Notes under the pieces: model-generated
What the model was told of the DNA's origin: nothing
Databases searched by the model: none
Seen by the model: the letters and a program-made list of their open reading frames with translations, nothing else
Source of the DNA: Alphaproteobacteria bacterium
GTDB taxonomy: Bacteria > Pseudomonadota > Alphaproteobacteria > Sphingomonadales > JAKSBY01
Length of the DNA: 64,000 nucleotides
Direction of reading: 5' to 3'
Assembly (NCBI GenBank): GCA_021774625.1
Contig: JAJFIV010000008.1
Location: 237,392-301,391 of the forward strand
Shown: positions 9,489-34,360 of the stretch, in pieces
Position numbering within the stretch: position 1 is the first letter of the stretch
How the letters are laid out: each line of letters begins with the position of its first letter
Made by a program: the position numbers and the translations under genes

Positions 9489-10754
9489 ATGGATGATTCC
9501 TTCACACTCAAATGGCTCTATCTCGACCTCAACAGCTATTTTGCTTCCGTCGAGCAGCAACTGCGTCCCGAACTGCGCGGCAAGCCGGTAGCGGTGCTGC
9601 CGGTGATGACCCGCACCACCTGTGCCATTGCCGCCAGCTATGAAGCCAAGGCGTTTGGCGTAAAAACCGGGACCATGATTTATGAAGCCAGAAAACTGTG
9701 CCCGGACCTGCACATGGTCGAGGCCCGGCATGACAAATATGTGGAGTATCATCACAAAATCCTTGCCGAAGTGGATCGGCACATCCCGGTGACAAAAGTC
9801 TGTTCCATCGATGAAGTCGCCTGCCGGCTGGACAAGACCGAGGCCGATCCGGAGCGGGCCATGGACCTCGCCCGGCGCATCAAACAGGGCATCCGGGACA
9901 ATGTCGGCGTGTGTCTGAATTCCTCCGTCGGCATTGCCCCCAACCGCTTTCTGGCCAAGGTCGCGAGCAATATGAAAAAACCCGACGGTCTGACCGTGCT
10001 GGAATATCACTGCCTGCGGGAACGGCTGTTCGCCCTGCCGCTCCGCGCCCTGCCCGGCATTGGCCGCAATATGGAAAAGCGGCTCAATCGGGCTGGTATC
10101 TTCAGTATCGAGGCATTGTGGAACCTCGTCCCCAAACATGCCCGCCGGGTCTGGAACAGTGTGGAAGGGGAGCGGTTTTGGTATGCCCTACATGGCTATG
10201 ATTTTCCGGCGCTGGAAACGGAACGCCGCACCGTTGGTCACAGCCATATGCTGGCCCCCGAACTGCGTCCACCCGACAAGGCCCGCATTGTCGGCCGCCG
10301 GCTGACCGCCAAGGCCGTCTCCCGCCTCCGCCGCATCGGTTATTACGCCAGCCATTTTCACCTCAGCGTCCGCCGCGAAGACCTCGGGAAATGGCAAGGC
10401 GATATGAAAGTGATGCCGAGCCAGGACAGTTTCGTCTTTCTGGAAGCATTGGAAAGTCTGTGGCAGACCATGCAGCGGGAAGCGCCGGCGGGACGCATCA
10501 AACAGGTCAGCGTCTGTTTGTTTGGCCTGGTCGCGGACGTGGATTACACCCCTGATTTTTTTTCTGCGACACCCCCGAAAGGCAGCCGCACCTATTTCGA
10601 CCGTCAGAAACTTTTCTCGGCACTTGACCAGATCAACCAGCGTTATGGCCGGGACACAGTGATGATCGGCAGCCAAAAAGCCCCGGTTCCCGTTTATACC
10701 GGCGTCAAGGTCGCCTTCACCCGCATCCCCGATGCCGAGGAATTTCAGGAGTGA
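9489..10754 (+). CDS. Y-family DNA polymerase (DinB/UmuC type)
   Basis: A translesion polymerase of 421 residues. The palm carries WLYLDLNSYFASVEQ with the first catalytic Asp and CSIDEVACRL with the Asp-Glu pair; the fingers contain AIAASYEAKAFGVKTGT. A helix-hairpin-helix region follows (LPGIGRNMEKRLNRAGI) and then a little-finger domain ending with GVKVAFTRIPD. It differs from typical DinB (LDLNSYF rather than VDMDAFF), like a Y-polymerase subgroup of alphaproteobacteria. No clear clamp-binding tail is seen. I chose ATG 9489, since the ATG at 9471 would overlap the LexA box just upstream. It ends 3 bases from the convergent cupin gene. Confidence 0.9.
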   Translation: MDDSFTLKWLYLDLNSYFASVEQQLRPELRGKPVAVLPVMTRTTCAIAASYEAKAFGVKTGTMIYEARKLCPDLHMVEARHDKYVEYHHKILAEVDRHIPVTKVCSIDEVACRLDKTEADPERAMDLARRIKQGIRDNVGVCLNSSVGIAPNRFLAKVASNMKKPDGLTVLEYHCLRERLFALPLRALPGIGRNMEKRLNRAGIFSIEALWNLVPKHARRVWNSVEGERFWYALHGYDFPALETERRTVGHSHMLAPELRPPDKARIVGRRLTAKAVSRLRRIGYYASHFHLSVRREDLGKWQGDMKVMPSQDSFVFLEALESLWQTMQREAPAGRIKQVSVCLFGLVADVDYTPDFFSATPPKGSRTYFDRQKLFSALDQINQRYGRDTVMIGSQKAPVPVYTGVKVAFTRIPDAEEFQE

Positions 10755-10757
10755 TTC

Positions 10758-11264
10758 TTACTCCGACTCCCCGTCAAAATAGCCGACCCCGGCGTCTTTC
10801 TTTGCGACGATGCGGAAGGTGGCTTTGCTGGGATCGCCTCCGGCCAGGTCGCCGCAGATCACGGCATATTTACCGGAATCCGGATATTCCGCCACATCGG
10901 GCGTTTCAAGTGTGGAAACAGCCAGAAAGACAAGCTCCGCATCCGCTGTGTTCCTGATCTGATGCGCTGTCCCGTGACCCGTTGGGCCGGCAATCACGTC
11001 GCCTTTTTTGATCGGATATTCCTTCCCGTCAAAGCGCAAGACGCCCTCGCCTTCAATAATAAAAAACATTTCCTCAATATTATGATGGAGATGATAGGGA
11101 AAGGCCGCCTTGCCGGGCTGCAGCCGGGTGATATTATATCCGAGCTTTTTTGCGCCAATCAGGGGCCCTATCATACCCAGTTTGGCCTGGAACTTACCGC
11201 CGTCGCCAAAATCCATATAATCGATATCGTCAATATTGATGACGGGTTTTATTGTCTCCGACAT
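10758..11264 (-). CDS. Cupin domain protein
   Basis: A 168-residue single-domain cupin. Motif 1 is PYHLHHNIEEMFFIIEGEG with the metal-binding His-His-Glu pattern; motif 2 is GPTGHGTAHQIRNTADAEL with the second His. These residues usually hold a divalent metal. Substrate and reaction are unknown; such proteins act as isomerases, dioxygenases or sugar-binding sensors. It is 12 bases downstream of the GNAT gene on the same strand, suggesting cotranscription. Confidence 0.85.
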   Translation of the reverse strand: MSETIKPVINIDDIDYMDFGDGGKFQAKLGMIGPLIGAKKLGYNITRLQPGKAAFPYHLHHNIEEMFFIIEGEGVLRFDGKEYPIKKGDVIAGPTGHGTAHQIRNTADAELVFLAVSTLETPDVAEYPDSGKYAVICGDLAGGDPSKATFRIVAKKDAGVGYFDGESE

Positions 11265-15783: not shown

Positions 15784-16041
15784 ATGCAAGACACACCCAC
15801 AACGGATGAAATTTATAACCGCGTCAAGGAGTTGACCGCGCCGTTCAACAAGAAAGGCATCGCTCTTACACCGGATACAACCTTTTCTGCGGATCTGGAC
15901 CTGGATTCGCTCACCGTAATGGACCTGGTTGCGGCGATTGAAGATGAATTTGACATTGTGCTGCCACTGAATATGCTGCCCGACCTGGAAACGCTCCAGC
16001 AGGTGGCCGGCGCCGTAAAAGAGATTTTGAAAAAGAAATGA
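15784..16041 (+). CDS. Acyl carrier protein paired with serine palmitoyltransferase
   Basis: An 85-residue acyl carrier protein. DLDLDSLTVMDLVAAIEDEFDIVLP holds the phosphopantetheine serine in DSL followed by the usual acidic helix. ATG 15784 gives a normal-length ACP; the frame is open upstream without a better start. Its stop overlaps the ATG of the next gene (ATGA), so the two are translationally coupled. In Caulobacter an ACP encoded next to spt supplies the acyl chain for sphingolipid synthesis; the same role is inferred here. Confidence 0.9.
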   Translation: MQDTPTTDEIYNRVKELTAPFNKKGIALTPDTTFSADLDLDSLTVMDLVAAIEDEFDIVLPLNMLPDLETLQQVAGAVKEILKKK

Positions 16042-17318
16042 GCGCAGACCTTTTTAATAAGTTCGATCCGGTTTTCAAAGCCCGGGCGGAACAGCCCGTC
16101 GACAGGGCGGACCCCTTTAAAGTTTGTATGGATGAGGTCCTTTCGGAAACCGAAGCGATGATCGACGGCCGCCACACCATCCTGGCCGGCACCAACAATT
16201 ATATGGGCATGACCTTTCGCGAAGAAGCGATCGAGGCCGCCCACAAGGCTATTGACGCGTTCGGCACCGGCACCACCGGATCACGGGTTCTGAACGGCAC
16301 CTATGCCGGTCACCGTATTCTGGAAGACGCGCTTCGTGATTTTTACGGCACCGAGCATGCAATGGTCTTTTCCACCGGCTATCAGGCCAATCTGGGCATT
16401 ATTTCCACGCTCGCCGGAAAAGACGATTTCGTCATTATCGACGCCGACAGCCATGCCAGCATTTATGACGGCTGCGCACTGGGCAATGCGACGGTTATGC
16501 GCTTTCGCCATAATGATGTGGCCGATCTCGACAAACGCCTCGGCCGGATTCCGCCGGAAGCAGGCAAGCTCGTCGTGATTGAAGGCATTTACAGCATGCT
16601 GGGCGATAAAGCGCCGGTGTCGAAGATCATTGCCATCTGCAAAAAACACGATGCGGCCATCATTGTCGATGAAGCCCATTCCATGGGCTTTTGCGGCGAG
16701 TCTGGCCGCGGCGTGGCTCAGGCAGAAGGCGTTGAGGGTGATGTGGATTTCATCATCGGGACTTTTTCCAAAAGTGTCGGCACCGTGGGCGGGTTTTGTG
16801 TTTCCAATCACCCCAAATTCGAAGTTCTGCGGCTGGTCTGCCGCCCCTATATGTTTACGGCGTCCCTGCCGCCATCCGTGGTGGCCTCGGCAGCCAAATC
16901 CATCGAACTGTTGAAATACGCCGGCAACAGGCGGGCGCATTTATGGGAAAATGCCCGGCGGCTCCATAGCGGGCTGAAAGAAGCCGGTTTTGTTCTGGGG
17001 ACCGAGACGGCGGAAAGTCCGATTATTGCCGTCTGTCTGCCCGATATGCCGACCACAACCCGTTTCTGGGCGGAACTGCTTCATGCCGGCGTCTATGCCA
17101 ATATGGCGGTACCGCCCGCGACGCCGCAGGGGCTTAATCTGCTCCGGTGCAGCGTCTGCGCCGCCCATAAGCCGGAACAGATCGACCAGATTATTGAACG
17201 GTTTATCAGGGTGGCGGAAATCCTGGCGCTGAATCTCAGCGAAACGCGCCGCGGCGGCGCAACCGCAGAAATAGCAGCGCACCCGCAAGCACCGGGTGCC
17301 GCCGCCGCCACGGGGTAA
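16038..17318 (+). CDS. spt: Serine palmitoyltransferase (alpha-oxoamine synthase)
   Basis: Condenses serine with a long-chain acyl thioester to 3-ketosphinganine, the first committed step of sphingolipid synthesis. The 426-residue PLP enzyme shows GTNNYMGMTFREEAIEAA, GTGTTGSRVLNGTYAGH, YSMLGDKAPV, DEAHSMGFCGESGRGVAQ and the PLP lysine in GTFSKSVGTVGGFCVSN; the FSKS form separates it from ALAS (LGKA). Coupling to an ACP and the nearby lipid kinase, hydroxylase and ceramide-synthase-like genes support the assignment. AONS or KBL would be the alternatives. Its 3' end overlaps the convergent gene by 83 bases. Confidence 0.88.
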   Translation: MSADLFNKFDPVFKARAEQPVDRADPFKVCMDEVLSETEAMIDGRHTILAGTNNYMGMTFREEAIEAAHKAIDAFGTGTTGSRVLNGTYAGHRILEDALRDFYGTEHAMVFSTGYQANLGIISTLAGKDDFVIIDADSHASIYDGCALGNATVMRFRHNDVADLDKRLGRIPPEAGKLVVIEGIYSMLGDKAPVSKIIAICKKHDAAIIVDEAHSMGFCGESGRGVAQAEGVEGDVDFIIGTFSKSVGTVGGFCVSNHPKFEVLRLVCRPYMFTASLPPSVVASAAKSIELLKYAGNRRAHLWENARRLHSGLKEAGFVLGTETAESPIIAVCLPDMPTTTRFWAELLHAGVYANMAVPPATPQGLNLLRCSVCAAHKPEQIDQIIERFIRVAEILALNLSETRRGGATAEIAAHPQAPGAAAATG

Positions 17319-18162
17319 TCTCAATTTCCACACCCGAATGGCGTTTGACTTTCCAGGCGATATAATCAATCCCGCCATCGAAGGTGAAAGCGGCTTTCAT
17401 CAGGCGCAATATACTGACCGTTTTACCGTTCCATCGCCGCAACCGCCAGCGCCGCCGCGCCCGCGCCCTTGTCTGAGGCCGCCAGCCGGCAAGAGCGGAT
17501 AGAATAAGGGGCGTAATGGCGTCATAGCGCGCCTGGTCCAGAAGATAAAGCTCCCTTCCCTTGTCCGCACCTTCGGACCGCAATTCAGCGCCATAAGTCA
17601 GTGAAAATGCCTTTTGCCATATGGCTGAGGGGGAGGACCGCTCTACGACGAACGGGAGGGCAGCGCGGATCATGGTGAGACAGGCCTGGGATACGGCATC
17701 GGTGACCGCGCATCTGCTTTCAGCATCGCGGGCGTAGACAAGACAAGCCGGCTGGCTGAAACGCGCCCATACCGACACGTTCAGGCATTTATCTGATGTC
17801 CGGAAACGCAGATCCGCCATACTCAGAACAGCATATTTCGACCGGACAATTTCCCCGCCCGCACCGGTTTCCGCATAAAACACATTGGGCGGCAGAATTT
17901 TATTGGCGGCGGCCAGCGGCATATTGCCATAGGCTTCCCGGTAATCGTCGACAATCACATAAAAATCGAGAATTTTGCCCTCGGTTTCCCCGGCTCGAAG
18001 GCAGGAACCGTAAAACAGGACAGCCGCCGCCGTAGAACCAAACCGTTTGCGGATTGCCGCCGCGGCGGTCATGATCGCAGGGGGTTGGGCCTTTGCCAAT
18101 TCCTTCTGAATGAAGGAGTCGAGATCGGAAAGCTGCCGGCCATTCTGCCCCATGGCAATCAC
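17236..18162 (-). CDS. Nucleotidyltransferase-like protein of the sphingolipid locus
   Basis: A 308-residue protein I cannot assign to a characterised family. Around residue 50 LFYGSCLRAG followed by ILDFYVIVDDYREAYG resembles the GS...D-x-D core of minimal nucleotidyltransferases, in altered form. The rest is mixed, with a very basic stretch (RARARRRWRLRRWNGK) near residue 235 and VLAGALLFLRLRRR at the C terminus. The start is GTG 18162 overlapping the kinase stop (GTGA); ATG 18153 is possible. Coupling to a lipid kinase suggests modification of the phosphorylated lipid head group. It runs 83 bases antisense into spt. Confidence 0.75.
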   Translation of the reverse strand: MIAMGQNGRQLSDLDSFIQKELAKAQPPAIMTAAAAIRKRFGSTAAAVLFYGSCLRAGETEGKILDFYVIVDDYREAYGNMPLAAANKILPPNVFYAETGAGGEIVRSKYAVLSMADLRFRTSDKCLNVSVWARFSQPACLVYARDAESRCAVTDAVSQACLTMIRAALPFVVERSSPSAIWQKAFSLTYGAELRSEGADKGRELYLLDQARYDAITPLILSALAGWRPQTRARARRRWRLRRWNGKTVSILRLMKAAFTFDGGIDYIAWKVKRHSGVEIEITPWRRRHPVLAGALLFLRLRRRGAFR

Positions 18163-19163
18163 CGGAAACTGATAAATGTCAGGCTTTTGTCACCCCGCAA
18201 AACCACCGGTTTACCCTCTGGCGGTTCATAGATTTCTCCGTCCAGGGTCACATGATTGCACCCTTCGATCCTGATTTCATCGGCGGTACGGGTATGAACT
18301 CCATCCAGGCTCGCGCGGCCAAACCGGCCCGTGATCAATCCTTTGATGGCATTAAACAGGGCGCGGTAGCGGAAATCAACGGCGGAGAATTTCAATCCTC
18401 CTTTCCCTTCCCGGCCATAAGGTTTCAAACCGAAAAGCAGCCGGTCCAGCGTCGTAATCACGATCCAGAAATACTGACCGTGTAAAATACCGCCGCCACG
18501 GATATGGATATTCGCCGGCCAAGTATAAAGCTCGGATGCAGGGTTTTTACCGTTGAAAATGATCTTGAACAAAGCAATCGGGATGGCAATGCCGTGCGAA
18601 ACGAAATTTGGCATCTTCATCGGATAAATATGGTCCCGGCAGTAGCAAATACTATTAACGACGGCCGCCCCGCCAAAAAACATGCCATAGCGCGGCGGTT
18701 GCCCGTCACCGACGTCCAGTTCGATCACTTTGTGTTCCCGAAGGCTTTCATCGACCCTGCCCTGTTCTGCCAGCGACAAAAGACGCCGGAGCAGTTGGAC
18801 CGGTTTTCCTTTGTACCCGAGATCGGCAGCGATCATATTGGTTTTACCGCCCGGAAGAATGGCGATCGGCGGAACATCTTCGAACGGTTTGTCATTGAAA
18901 ATACTGGACAGCGTCGCCTGGATTGTCCCGTCGCCGCCATTGATAACGATCATACAGGGATTGACGGCGGCGAACATACGGAGCGCATGTGGAATGGAGC
19001 CGATGTCATCAAGTTCGAAATGAAAAGCATTCTTGGCGTCCTCCACCGTACGGCGGACTTTACTCATAACCGACTGGTTCCGCGTACTCTGCGGATTGCT
19101 TAATATCGCAACCAGGGTTTTGGAATGGCTGTATTTTTCAACTTTAATCGGCTGGTGCTTCAT
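18159..19163 (-). CDS. Lipid kinase, diacylglycerol kinase fold; likely ceramide kinase
   Basis: A 334-residue member of the DAGK/LCB5/YegS family, which phosphorylates the hydroxyl of lipids with ATP. TLVAILSNPQSTRN opens the catalytic domain, VINGGDGTIQATLSSIF is the nucleotide-binding GGDGT motif, and ILPGGKTNMIAADLGYKGKP is the second conserved loop. The C-terminal half is the beta-sandwich domain (HVTLDGEIYEPPEGKPVVLR). Next to spt and overlapping the nucleotidyltransferase-like gene, it resembles the kinase of the Caulobacter anionic sphingolipid (ceramide polyphosphoglycerate) genes. Substrate is inference. ATG 19163 is used. Confidence 0.86.
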   Translation of the reverse strand: MKHQPIKVEKYSHSKTLVAILSNPQSTRNQSVMSKVRRTVEDAKNAFHFELDDIGSIPHALRMFAAVNPCMIVINGGDGTIQATLSSIFNDKPFEDVPPIAILPGGKTNMIAADLGYKGKPVQLLRRLLSLAEQGRVDESLREHKVIELDVGDGQPPRYGMFFGGAAVVNSICYCRDHIYPMKMPNFVSHGIAIPIALFKIIFNGKNPASELYTWPANIHIRGGGILHGQYFWIVITTLDRLLFGLKPYGREGKGGLKFSAVDFRYRALFNAIKGLITGRFGRASLDGVHTRTADEIRIEGCNHVTLDGEIYEPPEGKPVVLRGDKSLTFISFR

Positions 19164-19244
19164 GCAAATTGCTATTCAAAATGCCCATCCTGGAAATCAG
19201 GGTGAGATCACCGAAACTTCAATAGAGCATGATTGGGTAGGAAA

Positions 19245-19799
19245 TCAACGCCTGCGCCGCCGCTTCTTACTTTTATCTTCCGCCGAGTGGAACATATAAG
19301 TCAGGCTGATTTCCATTTTCTGTGCGCCCTCTTTCACGCCAAAGGCCACTTCCTTGAAGTCAGGGGCGCTCAAAACCAGTTTCGGATTATTGGAAAAGCC
19401 AAAGCCTTCCGTGAAAAAGTCCGCCTTGCCATTGGCATTCTTGTCATGCATGACAACAAAGGCATAGGTGCCGGGCCCCGGCAAAATGACACAGATATCC
19501 ATTTCGTCGGCCAGTGTCGGCACATCCACACGCATAAGCTTTTTGCCGGACGCCAGAAAATCATCCGGATTGTCATCATAAACCTGCACCCGGACATTGC
19601 CTTCGTCGGTTATGACTCCTTTGACAGAAATCAGAACGGATGTTTTATTTGTCCCCGTTTGACAGGCGGCCATTTCATCCGGCCCTTGTACGGAGGCATC
19701 AACATCATTGGCTTCTGCGGACTGTGCGGCCGAAGCAAATCCTAACGAAACGACCGGTAAAAAGACTGCGGCTATTTTTCTCAAGTGGCCAGAAATCAT
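19245..19799 (-). CDS. Secreted DUF2141 protein
   Basis: A 184-residue exported protein. The N terminus is a signal peptide (basic start, then AAVFLPVVSLGFASAAQSAEA with a likely cleavage after AQSA). Residues about 60-170 form a DUF2141 domain: NVRVQVYDDNPDDFLA, PTLADEMDICVILPGPGTYAFVVMHDKNANGKADF, EGFGFSNNP. The domain looks like a beta-sandwich; function unknown. The C terminus is a run of Lys and Arg. ATG 19799 follows GGAG. It precedes the lipid kinase by 81 bases on the same strand and may be cotranscribed with it. Confidence 0.85.
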   Translation of the reverse strand: MISGHLRKIAAVFLPVVSLGFASAAQSAEANDVDASVQGPDEMAACQTGTNKTSVLISVKGVITDEGNVRVQVYDDNPDDFLASGKKLMRVDVPTLADEMDICVILPGPGTYAFVVMHDKNANGKADFFTEGFGFSNNPKLVLSAPDFKEVAFGVKEGAQKMEISLTYMFHSAEDKSKKRRRRR

Positions 19800-20019
19800 G
19801 CCCTGCTCCAAAATTCTGCCGCGTATATAGCGGGCGCGGCGGAAATATGCTAAAAAAAACTGGGCTAAAATATGTCTGCCCATAGTTTAGCCATTATTCA
19901 TCATCCAACATTAACCCAAGATGACTGGCTTTTTGTCCGCCTCATTGTCCGTTTTTTCTTGCAAACCAACGGAATGCGGATTCATAAGAGGTCTGCATAC
20001 AGACAGATGATAAAAATTA

Positions 20020-21219
20020 ATGCTTACAAAACTTGACCGATATCTTCTGAGGCAGTTTTCAGTTCCGCTCTTTACGACGCTCATAATTGCCGCGCTGCTT
20101 CTGATTCTGGAGCGCATGCTCCGCCTGTTCGATTTTGTTGTCAATCAGGGCGGACCGGTTAAGGTGGTATGGCAGATGCTGGGAAATCTGATCCCGCATT
20201 ATATTGTCCTGGCCCTCCCTGTGGGGCTTTTTCTCGGCATCTTGCTGACCTTCCGCAAACTTTCCCTGAACAGCGAACTTGATGCCATACGCGCCAGCGG
20301 TTTCGGCCTTTTCCGCATGATGAAACCAGCTATGTTCCTTTCGCTGATTGCCCTGGTGGTCAATCTCGTCCTGCTCGGCTTCATCCAGCCGCACAGCCGG
20401 TTCGCCTACAGAGACCTGGTGTTCGAACTGCGCAGCGGGGCCCTGGGCGCCAGCATCAAGACCGGGGAATTTGTTTCGCTCCCCAACGATATTGTGCTGC
20501 GCGTCGAACAGTCGCGCAACAACGGCTCGGAACTGCTGGGCATTTTTGTTCAAAGGACCGACGCCGATGGACGGCAGATTGCCGTTTCCGCACAACGCGG
20601 CGGCTTTTTTTCCACCAATGACCGGCGGAATGTCTTTTTAAGGCTTTACGACGGACGGCTGGTGGATTTAAGCGAGACTCAGGAGCGTCCCCGCGTGTTG
20701 TCCTTCAATACCTGGGATTTGCCCATCAATTTGCCGCAGCTCGCGAATGAGACCGTGCGCGGCGAATCTCAGAATGAACTGACCATAACGCAATTATGGA
20801 CCGGCATGATGAGCGGCAATTTAAACGAAGTCGACCAGAACGGCTACCGCGCGCATTTTCACTGGCAGCTGTCCAATATTTTTCTTTTTCTCTTTTTTCC
20901 CTTTCTCGCCGCCACGCTTGGCATATCCAACAAACGGCAGGGGGAGGCGCTGGGTATCGTTGTCGGGCTTGCCCTGATTGTCCTTTATAACGAACTGCAG
21001 GAAGTCTGCCGGACGATAGTGGCTAACGGCACGGCTTCTCCCTATGCCACCACGTGGATATTGTTCGCCCTCTATTGTTTGCTCACCTACCGCCTCTTTT
21101 ACATCAGCGCCCGCAAAGTCGGCGGCGATCCGTTGCGCTGGGCGACAACCTGCTGGCTTGCCATTCGCAGGCCGGTGCTCAGGGTCTTCGCGCGCACGAA
21201 AAAAGTGCTTGGAACATGA
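20020..21219 (+). CDS. lptF: LptF-type permease (YjgP/YjgQ family)
   Basis: A 399-residue permease half of an LptB2FG-type lipid exporter, which extracts lipid from the outer leaflet of the inner membrane. Membrane segments are visible near residues 12-32, 55-80, 95-120 and again between about 285 and 375; between them lies the periplasmic beta-jellyroll. Family motifs include LLRQFSVPLF and LRKLSLNSELDAIRASGFG. Its stop overlaps the lptG start. In many alphaproteobacteria lptFG precede lptD; here they are flanked by sphingolipid genes and no lptA, lptB, lptC or lptD is in the window. Confidence 0.9.
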   Translation: MLTKLDRYLLRQFSVPLFTTLIIAALLLILERMLRLFDFVVNQGGPVKVVWQMLGNLIPHYIVLALPVGLFLGILLTFRKLSLNSELDAIRASGFGLFRMMKPAMFLSLIALVVNLVLLGFIQPHSRFAYRDLVFELRSGALGASIKTGEFVSLPNDIVLRVEQSRNNGSELLGIFVQRTDADGRQIAVSAQRGGFFSTNDRRNVFLRLYDGRLVDLSETQERPRVLSFNTWDLPINLPQLANETVRGESQNELTITQLWTGMMSGNLNEVDQNGYRAHFHWQLSNIFLFLFFPFLAATLGISNKRQGEALGIVVGLALIVLYNELQEVCRTIVANGTASPYATTWILFALYCLLTYRLFYISARKVGGDPLRWATTCWLAIRRPVLRVFARTKKVLGT

Positions 21220-22337
21220 GCGCGCTGACGGCACGTGTGTGGCAGATCGGTATGCCCTCCCGCATTCTTGGCGGCTACCTGATCCGGCAATATTTTATAA
21301 GATTTTTTGGCCTTCTGATCGGCCTGACGACAATTCTGCAGCTTTTGGATTTAATGGCGCAGTCGGACCAGATTCTCGCTGCGGATGGCGCGACCTGGCA
21401 ATCCCTGGTCCGCTACCTCTCTATGCGTGTCCCGCAGCTGGCATCAGAATTTACGCCCTTTTCAGCGTTGCTTGCCGCCATTCTGACTCTTGCGGGGCTC
21501 AGTCAGCACAGCGAAATAATCGTTATGAAGGCTTCCAGTCTATCTGCTCACACCATTCTGTATCCCTTGCTGGCGGCCTGCACCGGCATCGCTCTCGTGC
21601 ATTTTGCCTTCAATGAAACAGTCCTGGTCCGCGCCAATGCTTCCCTGAATTACTGGCAGGAGAACGATTATGCCACCAATCTGCCGCCCGTGCCGGACGT
21701 CGCCAGCGACGCCATGATGCTGGATGGGAATAATCTGGTGCTGATCCAAGGTGTGCGCCGCAACGCCAATCTTGTTGTGCTCGATAAAGTCTCCATTTTC
21801 GAACGGGATGGCGGCGGCAATCTGATGAATATGGTTCGCGCCGATTTCGCCATCTATATCGATAATAACTGGACGCTGTATGAAGTGCGGCGCTTTAATG
21901 TCATCGATCATACCCTGGAGACATTTGACAACCAGACATGGCCGACCACCATTCCGCCGGAGCGTTTCCTCGCCCTCACTGTCCGCCCGGACCGGGTGGA
22001 TATTTTTGTCTTATGGGAGTCCATTCAGGAATTGCGGCGGGAAGGCCATGCAACCGGCTCGCTCATAACGTCTTTCTACCATAAAATGGTGGAACCGATG
22101 GCTACGATATTGATGCCGCTGCTGGCCGCCATTGTCGGTTTTGGCATCCACCGCGGCGGCACCCTGTTTATCCGTTCCGCGATTGCCATGGCTTTGGGGT
22201 TTGGCTATTTTGTCGCCGATAATTTCATGCTGGCCATGGGTGAATTTGGCGTTGTGCCGCCGCTTCTCGCCGCCTGGGCGCCTATTCTGCTGTTTACCGC
22301 TCTTGGTCTCAGTGTCCTGATCTACACAGAGGAATAG
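21216..22337 (+). CDS. lptG: LptG-type permease (YjgP/YjgQ family)
   Basis: The 373-residue partner of LptF. It starts at ATG 21216 inside the lptF stop (ATGA); this gives MSALTARVWQIGMPSRILGGYLIRQYFIRFF with the usual N-terminal helix entering the membrane. Further segments lie at about 60-85, 100-120 and between 275 and 370, separated by the periplasmic domain. GLSQHSEIIVMKASSLS matches the cytoplasmic loop that couples to the ATPase LptB. The ATPase is not encoded nearby and must be supplied elsewhere. Context suggests possible transport of sphingolipid instead of, or besides, LPS. Confidence 0.9.
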   Translation: MSALTARVWQIGMPSRILGGYLIRQYFIRFFGLLIGLTTILQLLDLMAQSDQILAADGATWQSLVRYLSMRVPQLASEFTPFSALLAAILTLAGLSQHSEIIVMKASSLSAHTILYPLLAACTGIALVHFAFNETVLVRANASLNYWQENDYATNLPPVPDVASDAMMLDGNNLVLIQGVRRNANLVVLDKVSIFERDGGGNLMNMVRADFAIYIDNNWTLYEVRRFNVIDHTLETFDNQTWPTTIPPERFLALTVRPDRVDIFVLWESIQELRREGHATGSLITSFYHKMVEPMATILMPLLAAIVGFGIHRGGTLFIRSAIAMALGFGYFVADNFMLAMGEFGVVPPLLAAWAPILLFTALGLSVLIYTEE

Positions 22338-22345
22338 AGCCCCAG

Positions 22346-23899
22346 GTGACCAGTACAAAAAGTCCTCCCCCGGAAGCGGATGATCCTTCGCACAGGGATC
22401 AGTCCGTCGTGGCAAAAAGCGCCGGCCTCGCCTTTCTGGGGCGTCTGGGCGCTCTGATCGAAGCCGTCAGTTTCCCCGTTTTCGCTTATTTGTATGGCGC
22501 CGAAGCCGTTGGGGTCTATGTCACTCTTTGGGGCTATATCATGGCCACGACCGCTGTGACCGACTATGCTATGACCACAACGCTGCAACGTTTTGTACCG
22601 GCGGCAAAAACCGAGGAAGAAGCCCATAGCGCGGTCAAAATCGCCTTGATTGTTTCAACCGGCCTGGGGCTGGCTCTTGCCATGATTTTGTATTTCCTCG
22701 CGCCCTATATTGCCGGTTTCATCAATGCCGGTCCGGCGGAAGAAGAAAAACTCAGCACCATCATCCGGCTTTATGTCTGGTCGCTGCCCCTCTGGACCTT
22801 TGTTGAATCCGCAACGGCAACTGTCCGGGCGCGGCGCACCTTCGGCCCGGAAATCCGCATCCGGATATTTTATGAACAAGGTCTGAGACTGGCTGCAGGC
22901 GTTGGCTTTTTCTATCTCGGCTACACGCTTTACGGACTCTATCTTGCGCATATTTTCTCGCAAGGCGCCGCGGCTGTCCTCAGCATTCTGCTCGTCGCAA
23001 AATATTATGATTTAAAAGCCATCCTGTTTGCTCCGCTCGACCGGAAACTGTTGCGGGAGATGTTGTCATTCGCCACGCCGATGACGCCGGCGAACTTCCT
23101 CAAAAAACTCAATATTCAGCTGCCGGTTATTATGCTGAACACCTTTTTTCCCGGCGCCGCCGGCGCGCAGGCCGCGGCTCTCTTCGCCGCGGCACGAAAG
23201 ATCGCCAGCGTTTTGCGGGTTATCCGGCTCAGTTTCGATTATGTGCTCGCCCCGCTGGCGGCGGAAAAAAGTGCAAAATCCGGCCACGCATCGCTCGCCG
23301 ATATGTACAGTTTCGCCACCCGTCTGATGATTGCAACCATCATACCGGCTGCGGTCATTCTGATTCTGATCCGGGAAAGTCTGCTTGATCTGGCGTTTGA
23401 ACCACAATTCATGGCGGCGGCCGGCGCCCTTCTGGTGCTGTCGGTGGGCCGCATTCTGGAAGCCGCTCTCGGTCCTGCATCAACGCTTATTGAAATGCTC
23501 GGCAACCGCATGATTCCCCTGATCAACGGAACCATCGGCGTGACCGTCATGACGTCGCTTCTGTTTCTGCTGGGGCCGGCCTACGGTGCGACCGGCGCCG
23601 CGTTCGCCGCATCCGCCGGTCTTTTTGCTTCGGGTCTCGCCGACCTCTGGCAGGCCCATCGCATTTTCGGACTGGTTCCCTACCGGCGCAGCCTTTTGCG
23701 GCCCGCCTTTGTCGCCATCCTTGCGTCTGCCGCAAGCGCTGCCCTGATATATGCCGCGACACCCTTCGGCCCGGCAGCGGTTCTGGCGGTGGGAATTGCG
23801 AGCCTGATCGCAAGCTATGCGCTCATTTGCCGCTATGGTCTGAACGCCGCGGACGCCAAAGCTCTCGGCCCGTTCGGCCGCTTCGCGCGGAAACCCTGA
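22346..23899 (+). CDS. Polysaccharide/lipid flippase family membrane protein
   Basis: A 517-residue polytopic protein of the MATE-like oligosaccharide flippase (Wzx/MOP) superfamily. About 12-14 membrane helices can be seen, beginning with SAGLAFLGRLGALIEAVSFPVFAYLYGAEAVGVY, a typical first helix pair, and later FATPMTPANFLKKL and LSVGRILEAALGPAST. The GTG start at 22346 lies 8 bases after lptG and follows AG-rich sequence. It would flip a lipid-linked substrate from the cytoplasmic to the periplasmic leaflet; in this operon a glycosylated or phosphorylated sphingolipid is a candidate. Confidence 0.86.
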   Translation: MTSTKSPPPEADDPSHRDQSVVAKSAGLAFLGRLGALIEAVSFPVFAYLYGAEAVGVYVTLWGYIMATTAVTDYAMTTTLQRFVPAAKTEEEAHSAVKIALIVSTGLGLALAMILYFLAPYIAGFINAGPAEEEKLSTIIRLYVWSLPLWTFVESATATVRARRTFGPEIRIRIFYEQGLRLAAGVGFFYLGYTLYGLYLAHIFSQGAAAVLSILLVAKYYDLKAILFAPLDRKLLREMLSFATPMTPANFLKKLNIQLPVIMLNTFFPGAAGAQAAALFAAARKIASVLRVIRLSFDYVLAPLAAEKSAKSGHASLADMYSFATRLMIATIIPAAVILILIRESLLDLAFEPQFMAAAGALLVLSVGRILEAALGPASTLIEMLGNRMIPLINGTIGVTVMTSLLFLLGPAYGATGAAFAASAGLFASGLADLWQAHRIFGLVPYRRSLLRPAFVAILASAASAALIYAATPFGPAAVLAVGIASLIASYALICRYGLNAADAKALGPFGRFARKP

Positions 23900-24030
23900 A
23901 AAGAAGGCCTTTTATTTCCACTGATGACACCTTACATTAACGCCACGCCGGCTGTTATCCGCCGAAACCTTTTTTGGCGGCGTGGTGGTGGTTGGACAGA
24001 CGCTGAGATTTCAGATTGAGGAGAAGAACC

Positions 24031-24795
24031 GTGGTTGCCCGCTTCGGGTTTTGGAAAAAGAAAACCCACTATCTGAATAAAATGACGCTGAAGGAACTGG
24101 TCGCCGCCTATTTTCAATATTATGCGATCCAGGGGTATATTATTGTCGGCATCGCAGCTTCCGTGGTGGCCTTTATGTATGCGACCGCGGTCCTTCCCAA
24201 CCTGATCGCTGCCGGGATTGCGGTCTTTACCTATCCGCTGGCGTGGTATCTCCTGCACCGTTTTGTGCTGCATGGACGTTATCTTTATAAATCACCGCTA
24301 ACGGCGTCCGTGTGGAAGCGGATTCATTTCGATCATCACCAGGATCCCCATAATCTGGAAGTGTTGTTCGGCGCGCTTTACACCACGATGCCGACCATTT
24401 TCCTGATTACCGCCCCGGTCGGCTGGGCGCTTGACGGGCTTGGCGGGGCGGCGACAGCCGTGGCCGCCGGCATGTTCACCACCTGCTTTTACGAATTTGC
24501 CCATTGCATCCAGCATTTATCCTATAAGCCGAAAAACCGGATGCTGCTGCTGATGAAGCAGCGCCACATGGCCCATCATTTCCATGATGAAACCGGGAAT
24601 TTCGGCATCACTAATTTTACCTGGGACAAACTGTTCGGAACTTTTTACGAACGGGACGAACGCCCGGAAAAAAGCCCGACCGTTTTCAATATAGGTTACA
24701 ATCGGGAAGAAGCTGTGCGTTATCCCTGGGTCGCCAGATTATCCGGCGGCATGCCCTATGACGATCCCCGTGAAAAACGCCGCGACGCTGCCTGA
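24031..24795 (+). CDS. Fatty acid hydroxylase / sterol desaturase superfamily
   Basis: A 254-residue integral-membrane di-iron enzyme. The histidine clusters are all present: HRFVLHG, HFDHHQDPHN, HCIQHL and RHMAHHFHDE, together the eight-His pattern of the superfamily. Four hydrophobic segments lie between about residues 30 and 150. I chose GTG 24031 (MVARFGFWKKK), which follows GAGGAGAAG. Members hydroxylate acyl chains, sterols or ceramides. Placed 11 bases before the ceramide-synthase-like gene and in the spt locus, it may hydroxylate the acyl or long-chain base of the sphingolipid; this is inference. Confidence 0.85.
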   Translation: MVARFGFWKKKTHYLNKMTLKELVAAYFQYYAIQGYIIVGIAASVVAFMYATAVLPNLIAAGIAVFTYPLAWYLLHRFVLHGRYLYKSPLTASVWKRIHFDHHQDPHNLEVLFGALYTTMPTIFLITAPVGWALDGLGGAATAVAAGMFTTCFYEFAHCIQHLSYKPKNRMLLLMKQRHMAHHFHDETGNFGITNFTWDKLFGTFYERDERPEKSPTVFNIGYNREEAVRYPWVARLSGGMPYDDPREKRRDAA

Positions 24796-24806: not shown

Positions 24807-25952
24807 ATGACCCCATCGCTTCGCATTGAGCCTGTTGACGGGAGCAAAGCTCTCAAACAGTTCGTCCTGGTGCCCGTCGATCTTTACAGGCACGACCCCC
24901 ATTGGGTGCGCCCGCTGACCCTGGAGCGACTGCAGCATCTCTCGCCCAAACACAACCGGATGTTTGAGCATGCGGAGGTCAGGATGTGGACAGCGCTGCG
25001 TGGTGATAAGGCCGTCGGGCGCATCTCGGCCCAGGTAGATCAATTGGTCCAGCAGCATGTCAAAAAAGGACTTGGTCATTTTGGCATGTTCGAGTGCGAG
25101 GACAATCCGGAAACCGCGAAGGCTCTTTTCACCACGGCGGAAACCTGGCTGCAAGAAAAGGGCATGCAGGAAGTGAGCGGCCCGTTCGACCTTTCCGTCA
25201 ACGAACAGGTCGGCATCCTGGTCGATGGTTTTGATACGCCCCCCATGGTGATGATGGGCCACGCGCTGCCCTATTATCAGGCCCTGCTGGAAGCAAACGG
25301 CTATGGCAAGGAAAAGGATGTCTACGCCTATATTCTGGATATCACCAATCGTTTTCCGGAGAAAATTCAACGAATCTATCAGGCGGCGCGCAAATCCAAG
25401 CGCATTAGAATGCGCAATCTCGATATGAAAAACTATACCCAGGATATCGAGTTGATTATGGATATTTTCAACGACGCCTGGTCGGAAAACTGGGGCTTTG
25501 TACCCTTTACGCCCGCCGAAGCGCGGCAAACAGCAAAAGCGCTGAAACCGGTTGTCCGCACCGACGGCGTTTTTATCTGCGAATATGACGGCGTTCCTGC
25601 CGCCATGTTCGTTACCGTCGCCGACCTGAACGAACTGATCCGCGATATGAACGGCTCGCTCTTCCCGTTTAAATGGATGACGCTTTTATATAATCTGCAC
25701 CGGGTGCATGAAACCCGTTTTCGGGTGCCGTTAATGGGAACCCGGAAGCATCTTCAGGGAACGACCGCCGGCGCCCTTATGTCCTTCATCATGATTGAGG
25801 AAGCCCGGAGAAACGGCGTGTATCACGGCATCAAATGGTCGGAACTGTCCTGGATTCTCGAAGACAACAAGCCGATGATCAATATTCTCGAACAAATCCA
25901 CTGCAAGCGCTATAAAACCTACCGGATTTACGGAAAAAAGCTGGCCGCTTAA
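24807..25952 (+). CDS. GNAT-fold acyltransferase, candidate bacterial ceramide synthase
   Basis: A 381-residue protein of a family usually annotated GNAT N-acetyltransferase. Features: FVLVPVDLYRHDPHWVRPL near the start, AVGRISAQVDQLV, VSGPFDLSVNEQVGILVDGF, MMMGHALPYYQALLEANGY, FNDAWSENWGFVPFTPAEA, RVPLMGTRKHLQGT and GIKWSELSWILEDNKPMINI. It is twice the usual GNAT length, so two such folds are likely. As I recall, the Caulobacter ceramide synthase bCerS belongs to a GNAT-like family of this size encoded in its sphingolipid cluster, hence the proposal that this enzyme N-acylates the sphingoid base. It is 11 bases after the hydroxylase gene. Confidence 0.75.
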   Translation: MTPSLRIEPVDGSKALKQFVLVPVDLYRHDPHWVRPLTLERLQHLSPKHNRMFEHAEVRMWTALRGDKAVGRISAQVDQLVQQHVKKGLGHFGMFECEDNPETAKALFTTAETWLQEKGMQEVSGPFDLSVNEQVGILVDGFDTPPMVMMGHALPYYQALLEANGYGKEKDVYAYILDITNRFPEKIQRIYQAARKSKRIRMRNLDMKNYTQDIELIMDIFNDAWSENWGFVPFTPAEARQTAKALKPVVRTDGVFICEYDGVPAAMFVTVADLNELIRDMNGSLFPFKWMTLLYNLHRVHETRFRVPLMGTRKHLQGTTAGALMSFIMIEEARRNGVYHGIKWSELSWILEDNKPMINILEQIHCKRYKTYRIYGKKLAA

Positions 25953-31168: not shown

Positions 31169-34100
31169 TCATCGCTTGGTGCTGTCGGGGACTGTCTTCT
31201 GATCCTGGGGTGCGGCGGGCGCAAGTTTCATCTTATCTGGCGGCGGTTCTGAAACTGTTTGATCCGTTGTCTTGGCCGGTATTTCAACGGTGCCTTTCTT
31301 GCCCTCAAACAGATTGCGGAAAATACCCGGCGCCAGGGCTGTCATCGGATTGACCGTGACCTCGGGATTTGCGGCATCGCCCTCAATCCGGTAGGTAAGG
31401 GCAAAAAGCCCCTCACCCTTGCCACCCACCAGAATATCCCCGAGAATGGGGATTTTGCCGAGAAGGTTATTCAGCATGAACATCGGCACAATTATGCCGT
31501 CAACATTGATCCTTTCCAGCCCCTGATCAATCTGCCCCTTCATGGTGAAACCAATGGAAGGCCCGTTGGCCCTGGCATCGGTGATATCAACGATGCCGTC
31601 CCTTATCTCAAACGGCAGCACAAGCTTATTCAGGGAAAGGCCTTTTTTGGAAATATGCTCATCGAAATTGCCTTGTCCGCCCAACTCGATTGCCTTGACA
31701 AGGGAAGCCGACCGGACCAGCCGGAAATCCTTGACCTCCAGGTCCCCTTTCACCACCAGAGTATCGCCGCGGCCTATCAAATCGGCTTTCAGATCAAGCA
31801 CTCCGCCCTCACCATTCACGAAAAAGCCGAGGCCCAGCGCCGTACGTCCCGCATCCTCCGATGTGATGGACATTTTTCTGTGATCGCCCTCCGGCAGGAT
31901 CGTCAGCAATAGCGGTGCGCCAGAATCCAGATTGGCCGTAAGCGACAGACTTTTCCAGTAATCACCTTCATTCTCGGCGTCCACGACCATATTTGTATAG
32001 ATGACGTCATGAAGGCCGATGACTTTCTTTGCCTTAACATTCAGCCGAAGGGGCGGCATCGGCGGCGCATTAGGGTCGGATTCAAATATGCTGCGGAGAA
32101 AGACACGCGCATCAAAGCTTTCCGCGGTCATATCGACCGTCATCGGCGCTCCCTCGGGCTGCGCAACCAAAGCGGAAAATTGATTATCCGCCATGATCAG
32201 TCGGCTGACGACCGCCGCCCGCAGCTCGCCCGTTTCCCGATCAAAGGCAAGATTGGCGTCAAGCACCGTATCCGCCTGATTGATGCGCAGGGGTGCGATC
32301 AACACCCGGTCATTGATCCATTCCACGGGAAAATCCACCATCAGGGGAACGCCGGCCGGCTTGTGCCAGCCCAGTTCCTCAATAGACAAAGAGGCGTCAC
32401 CCAGCGATATTTTGGCGCGTCCCTCCACGATGTCGGGACCAAAGCCGCGCAGCATCAATTCAGCCGCGATGGGGCCCTGAATACGCTGTCCGGCTGTCAC
32501 CCCGAAATTGCTCAGCAGACGAGAATCCAGCGCACCGGTCAGGTGGTAGAAACTGGGAAATTCTCCCGCAGGAAGCTCGGTGAAATTTTCGCGCCAGGCC
32601 AAATCAAATGGAACGCCGTTCAGCGTCACCACACCATTAGCGTCAAGGCCGGATGCGGTAACCGTCATGGCAAGACGGCCATTGGTCAGACCTTCGCCGG
32701 TGAGCAATTCCGGAATTGCCAGCGAGGTAATCCCGGCATCCACCTGAATCTCCACCTGATCAAGTTCCAGCGCCTTTATCAGGGGAAATTTCAGTTTTGT
32801 CACGGTCACCGCATTGCCCATGATACTGCCCGGAACAATGCCGTATTTTGACGTATAACCCAGCGGCTCATAATCAATCAGCCGCAGGATATCCGGAACA
32901 GATGCGGCCACACGCACGCTGATATCGGCTGTATTCTGCCCTTTCTCCTGTAGATTCGCAAGGATGACATCGGAACTGGAAAGAGGAATGCCATCCGCTA
33001 TGCCGGTTTCAAGAACCAGCATCAGGCTGTCCGCTGTCAGACGGGCAGTTCCACTGCCTTCGGTGATCGGCGGCATGGGTTTCAGATAATGCGCGGTGGC
33101 GTTTTCAAAGGAAAAACTGATTTGAAAGGCTTCTTCGGGAAGGCGGTCCGCCTGCAACATGTCGGGTGTAAGCTTTACCCAGATATTTGCAGCCGGAATA
33201 TACCCTTTTGGCATATTTGCGCTCACCCAATCGTGGCCGCCCGCGGCAACAGAGGCCGGCCAATATTCCAACAGCCGCCGCAGATCCATATCTTCCAGCG
33301 TTGCCCTGAAATGAACTTCCGGCCCGGCAGGCAGGAAACTAACAAGGCCGTCGCCGTTAAACTGCGCGCCGCCAAAGCGGGAGGAAATCCGCGTCAGCGT
33401 CAGCGTTTTATCGGCAATAACATACCGGCCTTTAACTGTTGCGGTTTCTATCGTCGGCGCATTTTCATAGAGCCCGGGATAGATGACTGTGCCCGCGGCA
33501 GCCGCTAAATCAAATTCGACACTGTTCGCCCCGTTTCCGGAAAAACTTACGCGGGCAGCACCGGATATGGGGAGATTCATGGCGGCCAGGTCCTCCGCCT
33601 CGGCGATATCGCCAAACAGCTGCGCCGGATTGATCTCCATAAACCCGACTGTCAGCAACTGCGCCTCGCCATTTTCGGCAAGTGGCAGATCGAGGGAAAT
33701 ATCAGACTGTCCGTCCCTGGTTTCAAGGCGGGCGGAAACGGATAATCGCGCGCCCTTGGCGGATCGTTCCGCCAGCAGTTCGAGATCATTGAGATCCCAT
33801 TGAACGCCGCTTTTTTCTTCTGTGAGCCGCACGCCCGCATCCACCAGACGAATGCGCGTCAATTGCCCGATCGGCCCTTCCCTGTCAGGTGATTGTAAAA
33901 GCCGGCTAATGAAAATGATAACAGGATCTTTATCGACTGAAATGCCTTCGGCAGTCCCGTCCATCCCCGCCCGGATCTCTGCCGCCGACCATTGCAGGGC
34001 CGCTTTTGCCCCCTGAATGCGGATACCGGTCGGCGCTATATTAAATTTCAAAAGTTCCGCAGGGTCAAAACGCAGGCTGATTTCCGGCACCCGGATAGCA

Positions 34101-34360
34101 AGATCAGTGGCTTTGTCCTCAAGACTTGCATCGGTGATGGTCAGATCGAGGCCATTTTTCTCCGTCCACTGAACAACTGTATGCTCAAAATCAACGTCGG
34201 TATCCGGCATGGATTCGGCAAGGGCCTTGCGGATATTGGAATCGAGAAACGGCAGGGCGACAGGTCCCTCGGCCAGGCGCCAAACAGCCGCGCCCGCCGC
34301 CAATCCAATGATCAGCAATACCGCGCCCAAAACGGCGCACGTGCGTAAAAAATATTTCAA
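31169..34360 (-). CDS. AsmA/YhdP-like envelope protein with DUF3971 domain
   Basis: A 1063-residue protein with one N-terminal membrane anchor (residues about 5-28, LRTCAVLGAVLLIIGLAAGAAVW) and a very long periplasmic part rich in short beta-strands, matching the DUF3971/AsmA_2 type of YhdP. Such proteins form hydrophobic grooves bridging the envelope and move phospholipids to the outer membrane. Towards the C terminus KGQIDQGLERINVDGIIVP and LVGGKGEGLFALTYRIEG match the AsmA-like end, followed by a Pro/Lys-rich tail. Divergent from glnE. No LptD-like partner nearby. Confidence 0.85.
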   Translation of the reverse strand: MKYFLRTCAVLGAVLLIIGLAAGAAVWRLAEGPVALPFLDSNIRKALAESMPDTDVDFEHTVVQWTEKNGLDLTITDASLEDKATDLAIRVPEISLRFDPAELLKFNIAPTGIRIQGAKAALQWSAAEIRAGMDGTAEGISVDKDPVIIFISRLLQSPDREGPIGQLTRIRLVDAGVRLTEEKSGVQWDLNDLELLAERSAKGARLSVSARLETRDGQSDISLDLPLAENGEAQLLTVGFMEINPAQLFGDIAEAEDLAAMNLPISGAARVSFSGNGANSVEFDLAAAAGTVIYPGLYENAPTIETATVKGRYVIADKTLTLTRISSRFGGAQFNGDGLVSFLPAGPEVHFRATLEDMDLRRLLEYWPASVAAGGHDWVSANMPKGYIPAANIWVKLTPDMLQADRLPEEAFQISFSFENATAHYLKPMPPITEGSGTARLTADSLMLVLETGIADGIPLSSSDVILANLQEKGQNTADISVRVAASVPDILRLIDYEPLGYTSKYGIVPGSIMGNAVTVTKLKFPLIKALELDQVEIQVDAGITSLAIPELLTGEGLTNGRLAMTVTASGLDANGVVTLNGVPFDLAWRENFTELPAGEFPSFYHLTGALDSRLLSNFGVTAGQRIQGPIAAELMLRGFGPDIVEGRAKISLGDASLSIEELGWHKPAGVPLMVDFPVEWINDRVLIAPLRINQADTVLDANLAFDRETGELRAAVVSRLIMADNQFSALVAQPEGAPMTVDMTAESFDARVFLRSIFESDPNAPPMPPLRLNVKAKKVIGLHDVIYTNMVVDAENEGDYWKSLSLTANLDSGAPLLLTILPEGDHRKMSITSEDAGRTALGLGFFVNGEGGVLDLKADLIGRGDTLVVKGDLEVKDFRLVRSASLVKAIELGGQGNFDEHISKKGLSLNKLVLPFEIRDGIVDITDARANGPSIGFTMKGQIDQGLERINVDGIIVPMFMLNNLLGKIPILGDILVGGKGEGLFALTYRIEGDAANPEVTVNPMTALAPGIFRNLFEGKKGTVEIPAKTTDQTVSEPPPDKMKLAPAAPQDQKTVPDSTKR

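Follow-up and report, generated by a model that had tools for sequence, protein, structure and literature searches.

The LptF and LptG proteins encoded at positions 20020-22337 of the window (the whole stretch of 64,000 nucleotides that was analysed) are interpreted here as the two membrane components of an LptB2FG complex that extracts a head-group-bearing sphingolipid and not LPS. We place the probability of this reading, which is drawn from sequence comparison, at about 0.83; the cell itself appears to be devoid of lipid A and LPS. The first-pass annotation had read the pair as a possible sphingolipid exporter from its position, and that proposal gains support from the phylogeny of the pair, from an apparent deletion between pepA and lptD, and from the repeated co-occurrence of this kind of LptFG with the loss of LpxC.

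Results

Absence of lipid A genes and retention of the Lpt bridge

The genome that carries the window (3.0 Mb, completeness 100) has no lptFG pair other than the one described here. Profile searches detected neither LpxC nor LpxB in it; both profiles match in the control genomes of E. coli and Caulobacter. Of the pathway LpxA, LpxB, LpxC, LpxD, LpxK, and KdtA, the search covered these two. Since LpxC and LpxB are absent, the lipid A supply on which the function of an LPS exporter depends is lacking, and lipid A therefore cannot be the cargo of the window LptFG. The same pattern is seen throughout the order, where LpxC was found in 0 of 21 genomes and LpxB in 0 of 21; LptD is present in all 21, and LptFG in 20, the remaining genome (G009) having LptD and no detected LptFG.

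The partners LptB, LptC, LptA, and LptD are all present in the same genome. LptD lies on contig 7 within the series pepA-lptD-surA-pdxA-ksgA, and the gene order rnd-lptC-lptA-lptB-rpoN is intact on contig 20; the window is located on contig 33, in agreement with the first-pass observation that none of lptA-D is nearby. (The genes called pepA, surA, pdxA, ksgA, gmk, rnd, and rpoN are presumably these, their names having been given by recognition of the translations rather than by family search.) LptB passes TIGR04406 (376.9 bits, cut-off 240), LptC matches PF06835, and LptA matches PF03968. LptA-D have been kept in a genome without LpxC and LpxB, and therefore the bridge and its motor are retained without their classical cargo. 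The search covered LptA, B, C, D, F, and G; LptC was not found in five of 36 genomes (G007, G009, G019, G060, and G117). Four other genomes of the class (G025, G086, G094, and G102) have neither LptFG nor LptD and seem to have lost the whole Lpt pathway.

Automatic annotation would suggest an ordinary LPS exporter that lies near sphingolipid genes by happenstance: the NCBIfam equivalog cut-offs for 'LPS export ABC transporter permease' are exceeded by LptF (242.5 versus 230) and by LptG (253.7 versus 240), and the sole lptFG copy is accompanied by the remainder of the Lpt pathway. Where LpxC and LpxB are lacking, such a match would be misleading. The absence of both genes from a 100%-complete genome and from 21 of 21 genomes of the order, together with the linkage, the phylogeny, and the deletion of the LPS-type pair described below, makes this explanation very improbable. 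The first-pass annotation had set against its own proposal the case of a sole lptFG copy that is essential for LPS export; the copy is indeed the sole one, but its essentiality for LPS export cannot hold in the absence of LpxC and LpxB.

The sphingolipid locus

The pair belongs to a sphingolipid locus. An acyl carrier protein (ACP) gene on the plus strand (15784-16041; PF00550, 45.4 bits) overlaps the SPT gene (16038-17318, plus strand; NCBIfam NF047599, 612.7 bits, cut-off 500), whose product performs the first committed step of sphingolipid synthesis. Three genes on the minus strand follow, encoding a conserved protein without a match in Pfam or NCBIfam (17236-18162), a lipid kinase of the DAGK family (18159-19163; PF00781, 52.9 bits), and a secreted-looking DUF2141 protein (19245-19883; PF09912, 87.4 bits), the last gene being divergent from lptF. 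The family-less protein, which has homologues in most of the sphingolipid loci examined and on the Diaphorobacter and Roseomonas plasmids, is by its position possibly the counterpart of Caulobacter CC_1161. The kinase, by family and position, is a candidate ceramide kinase, a role held in Caulobacter by CC_1160 according to the accessible text of the report on that cluster (PMC11324152).

The lptF gene (20020-21219, plus strand) encodes 399 amino acids that match PF03739 with 228.7 bits over positions 1-352 of the 353-position profile, and lptG (21216-22337, plus strand) encodes 373 amino acids that match it with 227.6 bits over positions 2-351. The two genes share the letters ATGA at 21216-21219, the end of lptF and the start of lptG. 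Only 8 bases separate the lptG stop (22337) from a gene with a GTG start (22346-23899, plus strand; Polysacc_synt, PF01943, 48.6 bits) for a Wzx/MATE-like protein, a candidate sphingolipid flippase, and then come the genes of an FA_hydroxylase family protein (24016-24795, plus strand; PF04116, 70.4 bits) and of a CerS-like protein of 381 amino acids (24807-25952, plus strand). The overlap, the 8-base interval, and the order of the downstream genes had all been recognized in the first-pass annotation and are confirmed by the coordinates and the family matches.

The CerS-like protein, a candidate bacterial ceramide synthase, has no match in Pfam or NCBIfam, and a search of the PDB with it gave no match. 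It is so called because its homologues adjoin SPT in many loci, including that of a named Sphingomonas; they stand next to SPT across the order, and the homologue of Sphingomonas parapaucimobilis, beside SPT and lptFG, is annotated as an N-acetyltransferase. The DUF2141 protein may be a periplasmic partner. Its AlphaFold2 model, built from three sequences, is beta-rich with a mean pLDDT of 67.9, and no LptA- or LptC-like structure was found among the 50 best PDB matches listed. The DUF2141 gene adjoins sphingolipid-type lptF, mostly divergently, in many genomes (for example in stretches L049:8394, L067:8031, L071:8293, and L164:5875-6276), and was also observed on the Roseomonas plasmid and, in G013, beside the single lptF-like gene. 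About 5 kb from the locus, positions 31169-34360 (minus strand) encode a YhdP/AsmA-like protein (PF13116), of a kind associated with lipid transport.

SPT and/or the CerS-like gene occur on the same stretch (at most 20 kb) as LptFG in 18 of the 20 genomes of the order that have LptFG, and the arrangement is therefore not a product of chance. The two exceptions are G003, where the stretch is a 3.5-kb contig, and G013, where the genes are unlinked. Additional single genes for sphingolipid-type LptF-like proteins were observed in G004 (two, L066:6123-7340 and 18481-19899), G013 (L067:8822-10030), and G018 (L068:9174-10511); the single gene of G013 adjoins flippase, hydroxylase, and CerS-like genes, and the lptFG pair of that genome lies elsewhere.

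Two types of LptFG

A first analysis of 54 LptF and 54 LptG sequences gave trees that each split into copies adjacent to pepA or lptD and copies from sphingolipid loci. The LptF tree was extended to 72 rows, including E. coli, named Sphingomonas, and plasmid copies from Roseomonas and Diaphorobacter. In it, 38 copies from sphingolipid loci are separated (support 96) from 33 copies of pepA/lptD loci (support 99), and E. coli LptF lies between the two groups. The LptG tree gives nearly the same split, the fork of the sphingolipid type having a support of 85 and including two long rows of unsure position. On the evidence of these trees, LptF and LptG comprise two old types, an LPS type and a sphingolipid type. 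The window proteins belong to the latter by family (PF03739) and tree placement: the pair stands beside the SPT and CerS-like genes, forms one clade with other such copies, and is found neither in the pepA-lptFG-lptD site nor in the LPS-type clade.

The gene context follows the same division. All 28 stretches around LPS-type pairs contain pepA and/or lptD, and none of them contains a homologue of any of seven sphingolipid-locus genes (SPT, CerS-like, kinase, family-less protein, flippase, hydroxylase, and DUF2141); neither pepA nor lptD was found in any of 30 stretches around sphingolipid-type pairs. The E. coli proteins score higher with the hidden Markov models of the sphingolipid type than with those of the alphaproteobacterial LPS type (LptF, 139.1 versus 114.6; LptG, 174.8 versus 143.7). 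For this reason context and tree, and not distance from all LPS extractors, define the sphingolipid type, and across all bacteria the two types do not correspond simply to 'LPS' and 'not LPS'.

Four LpxC-positive genomes (G111, G036, G037, and G089) contain one pair of each type, and LptD and LptC each have a single match in every one of them. The second pair is located beside an SPT or CerS-like gene in three of them (G111, G089, and G036), and in the 13-kb stretch of G037 a lipid kinase and DUF2141 are the only such neighbours. In one further genome, G034, an LPS-type pair occurs together with a highly divergent pair to which no type was given.

The empty site between pepA and lptD

The lptFG-lptD order cited as usual for alphaproteobacteria in the first-pass annotation was recovered in our sample, with lptFG between pepA and lptD in all 20 measured genomes that keep the LPS-type pair (19 LpxC-positive genomes and G061). 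Measured from one alignment edge to the other, the pepA-lptD gap is 2298-7534 bp in these 20 genomes and 119-492 bp in all 25 measured genomes without an LPS-type pair, a bimodal distribution. The 25 comprise 20 genomes of the order (G000 and G002-G020) and G044, G046, G060, G087, and G117 from other orders; G001 and G073 were outside the measurement. Judged from these distances, the short gap is the empty site of a deleted LPS-type pair. The second lptFG that was expected beside lptD was sought in the genome of the window and is missing there because it was deleted; 181 bp separate the alignment edges of pepA and lptD.

Loss of LpxC across the class

LpxC is missing in eight of the 80 genomes of the class that were searched (G046, G060, G061, G073, G077, G087, G117, and G120), and a separate search added two LpxC-negative genomes, G044 and G067, the latter without LptFG. 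Nine LpxC-negative genomes from outside the order have LptFG, and all of them except G077 were typed: six contain the sphingolipid type only, in each case beside a CerS-like gene (G044, G046, G060, G073, G087, and G117), and two contain the LPS type. With the 20 genomes of the order and these eight others counted together, only the sphingolipid type is present in 26 of 28 typed LpxC-negative genomes; all 30 typed LpxC-positive genomes (25 with a single pair, the four with both types, and G034) have an LPS-type pair. LptD is retained in all eight LpxC-negative genomes of the 80-genome search, and in G044. The pair of G087, a member of another order, had been pre-assigned to the LPS group and was nevertheless placed in the sphingolipid clade before the LpxC status of this genome was known; G087 was later found to be LpxC-negative, and its pair to stand beside SPT, hydroxylase, and CerS-like genes.

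The rule is imperfect because G061 (stretch L112) and G120 (L140) have no LpxC match and yet keep an LPS-type lptFG next to lptD, unless lpxC is merely missing from the assemblies; either an incomplete assembly or another cargo would account for the two cases. A species tree from four markers (pepA, ksgA, pdxA, and gmk) interleaves LpxC-positive and LpxC-negative lineages. The best tree implies eight changes of the LpxC state, but strongly supported branches force only two, and by repeated loss we therefore mean at least two losses.

Residue differences between the types

Glutamates of the coupling helices, tied to LptB in the accessible text of an earlier study (PMC5082905), are common to both types. 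They are kept in the window proteins (E86 of LptF and E100 of LptG) and, within the sphingolipid type, in 26 of 27 LptF rows (the other has a gap) and in 27 of 27 LptG rows, so that pairing with LptB is expected. The lack of LPS would relax selection on an LPS exporter, and one might regard the pair as a leftover without transport function; with open reading frames, with the coupling-helix glutamates maintained to this extent, and with the pair kept in 20 of 21 genomes of the order while the LPS-type pair was removed, this explanation is scarcely credible.

The comparison of gate-side residues that the first-pass annotation had proposed reveals a difference in charge after the first transmembrane segment (TM1) of LptG. 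An aspartate follows TM1 in 23 of 25 LPS-type rows and 26 of 27 sphingolipid-type rows. After it, two basic residues are present in 20 of 25 LPS-type rows and at least one in all 25, whereas in the sphingolipid type two are present in 0 of 27 rows and none in 22 of 27. A Fisher test on this comparison takes no account of kinship among the genomes, and its p-value is therefore not read as a probability. Window LptG accordingly lacks the Arg-Arg found after TM1 in the LPS type. The mean net charge of the LPS type versus the sphingolipid type is +6.1 versus +0.8 for LptF and +0.6 versus -2.6 for LptG. Contacts of the Shigella protein with LPS phosphates have been described in the region after TM1 of LptG (PMC6744409, accessible text). 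A direct mapping of E. coli K34 and R136 onto window LptG was distrusted, since the MAFFT and HMMER alignments differ by about three residues in TM1; in view of this uncertain register, our claim is confined to the difference between the types within alphaproteobacteria.

Plasmid-borne copies

The sphingolipid type also occurs on plasmids. On pRo-1 of Roseomonas gilardii, LptFG is accompanied by DUF2141, a kinase, a CDP-alcohol transferase, a hydroxylase, and a CerS-like protein; on pDCB2, a conjugative IncP plasmid of the betaproteobacterium Diaphorobacter sp. JS3051, by a kinase and a CerS-like protein. Both LptFG pairs score as the sphingolipid type. No lptA-D is annotated in the plasmid stretches examined, which suggests that the plasmid LptFG uses the bridge of its host. 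The Diaphorobacter stretch (L166, NZ_CP065408.1, 49104-68189) also contains a CDP-alcohol transferase gene. In the Roseomonas stretch, the annotation divides LptG (L164:8193-9259) into two pieces and gives the CerS-like gene (10086-11243) the name dATP pyrophosphohydrolase. An Azospirillum plasmid lptF, located beside glycosyltransferases, is of the LPS type. In the LptF tree, the S. parapaucimobilis protein groups within the order to which the window belongs, so that this alphaproteobacterial order is probably Sphingomonadales, taken broadly.

These copies bear on a further explanation, in which the cargo is some other surface lipid or glycolipid that takes the place of LPS, and the sphingolipid neighbours of the pair are there only through a common role in the outer membrane. 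Sequence does not reveal cargo, and for diderms without LPS, Borrelia among them, glycolipids are the presumed cargo of the Lpt orthologues according to the accessible text of PMC10353723. However, in three of the four LPS-positive genomes with both types the second pair again stands beside an SPT or CerS-like gene, and the pair travels with a CerS-like gene on the Roseomonas and betaproteobacterial plasmids. We consider the export of another lipid unlikely.

Discussion

In the mechanism that we favour, export of a sphingolipid by the window pair, the enzymes encoded in the locus would make ceramide, which would probably be phosphorylated by the DAGK-like kinase and flipped by the Wzx-like protein; LptB2FG would then extract it and feed the retained LptC-A-D bridge. 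Sphingolipid transport itself, the teamwork with LptB-C-A-D, the order of the steps, and the head group are what we infer from the genomic evidence. The first-pass annotation had proposed an anionic cargo; the export of a sphingolipid is supported, and its anionic character is suggested only by the neighbouring gene for a lipid kinase-like protein.

A broader model, to which we give even odds, treats the Lpt bridge as a conveyor for lipids in general and LptFG as its exchangeable cargo adaptor. A sphingolipid cassette, made up of synthesis genes and its own LptFG, would spread, also by conjugative plasmid into a betaproteobacterium, and plug into the LptB-C-A-D of its new host; where a genome has both pairs, one LptD would serve two extractors. 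With the cassette in place, lineages would repeatedly drop both lipid A and the LPS-type adaptor and rely on sphingolipid for the outer leaflet.

The loss of lipid A is usually thought hard to survive. Our data suggest that it occurred more than once where a sphingolipid-type adaptor was present, and that substrate choice resides in LptFG, the other parts of the bridge being common to both cargoes. An LPS-free lineage with only a sphingolipid-type extractor offers a clean test system, free of an LPS background and of a second pair, and it is the 'LPS export' names from automatic annotation that hide the case.

The route of sphingolipids to the bacterial outer membrane was stated to be unknown in two papers of 2024 (PMC11324152, PMC11087976), and no flippases or transporters had been identified according to the accessible text of the latter. 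A literature search at the level of titles and abstracts, mostly without subscription papers and preprints, returned no report of LptFG replacement in LPS-free alphaproteobacteria and none of an experimentally studied sphingolipid Lpt system.

Several known systems resemble the one described here. LptB2FG of E. coli and Shigella has the same Pfam family, lptF-lptG order, ATGA-type overlap, and coupling-helix glutamates (PMC5082905, accessible text); the window pair differs in its locus and presumed cargo, and its LptG is largely not basic at the LPS-phosphate positions described in the accessible text of PMC6744409, with an uncertain register near K34-K41. Borrelia burgdorferi likewise keeps the Lpt pathway without LPS, another lipid having been proposed as cargo; there the proposed lipid is a glycolipid, and the accessible text describes no swap of LptFG types (PMC10353723). 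A plasmid cluster of S. parapaucimobilis YK209 (NZ_CP155753.1) combines ACP, SPT, one further gene, lptF, lptG, a desaturase, and a CerS-like gene in one stretch; this 25-kb stretch shows no kinase-like gene or hydroxylase homologue at 1e-5 and has a fatty acid desaturase instead.

The closest parallel is the sphingolipid cluster CC_1168-CC_1152 of Caulobacter crescentus, with LptF2 and LptG2 (CC_1156 and CC_1155), LptC2 (CC_1168), and the flippase CC_1166. As in the window, a second-type LptF and LptG and a flippase stand beside spt, ceramide kinase, and cerS (PMC11324152, accessible text); the likeness is one of gene context, CC_1155 and CC_1156 being outside our trees with the dual-copy genome G111 as a stand-in. 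Orthologues of the cluster genes in S. wittichii and Z. mobilis are described as scattered in the same source. The window locus has no lptC, unlike the Caulobacter cluster with its LptC2, and the one LptC match of its genome is at the lptC-lptA-lptB site. Caulobacter has LpxC and LpxB (both found in the control genomes), and another LptFG is implied by the wording 'second versions' in the accessible text (PMC11324152), whereas the window genome lacks both enzymes and the window pair is its sole extractor. Hence the analogy drawn in the first-pass annotation, with LPS and sphingolipid side by side, does not carry over to a cell that appears to have no lipid A. Movement of a phosphosphingolipid to the outer membrane by LptF2G2 was already put forward for Caulobacter, as a proposal only (PMC11324152, accessible text); what is added here is the sole-extractor state, the deletion scar between pepA and lptD, and the repetition of that scar.
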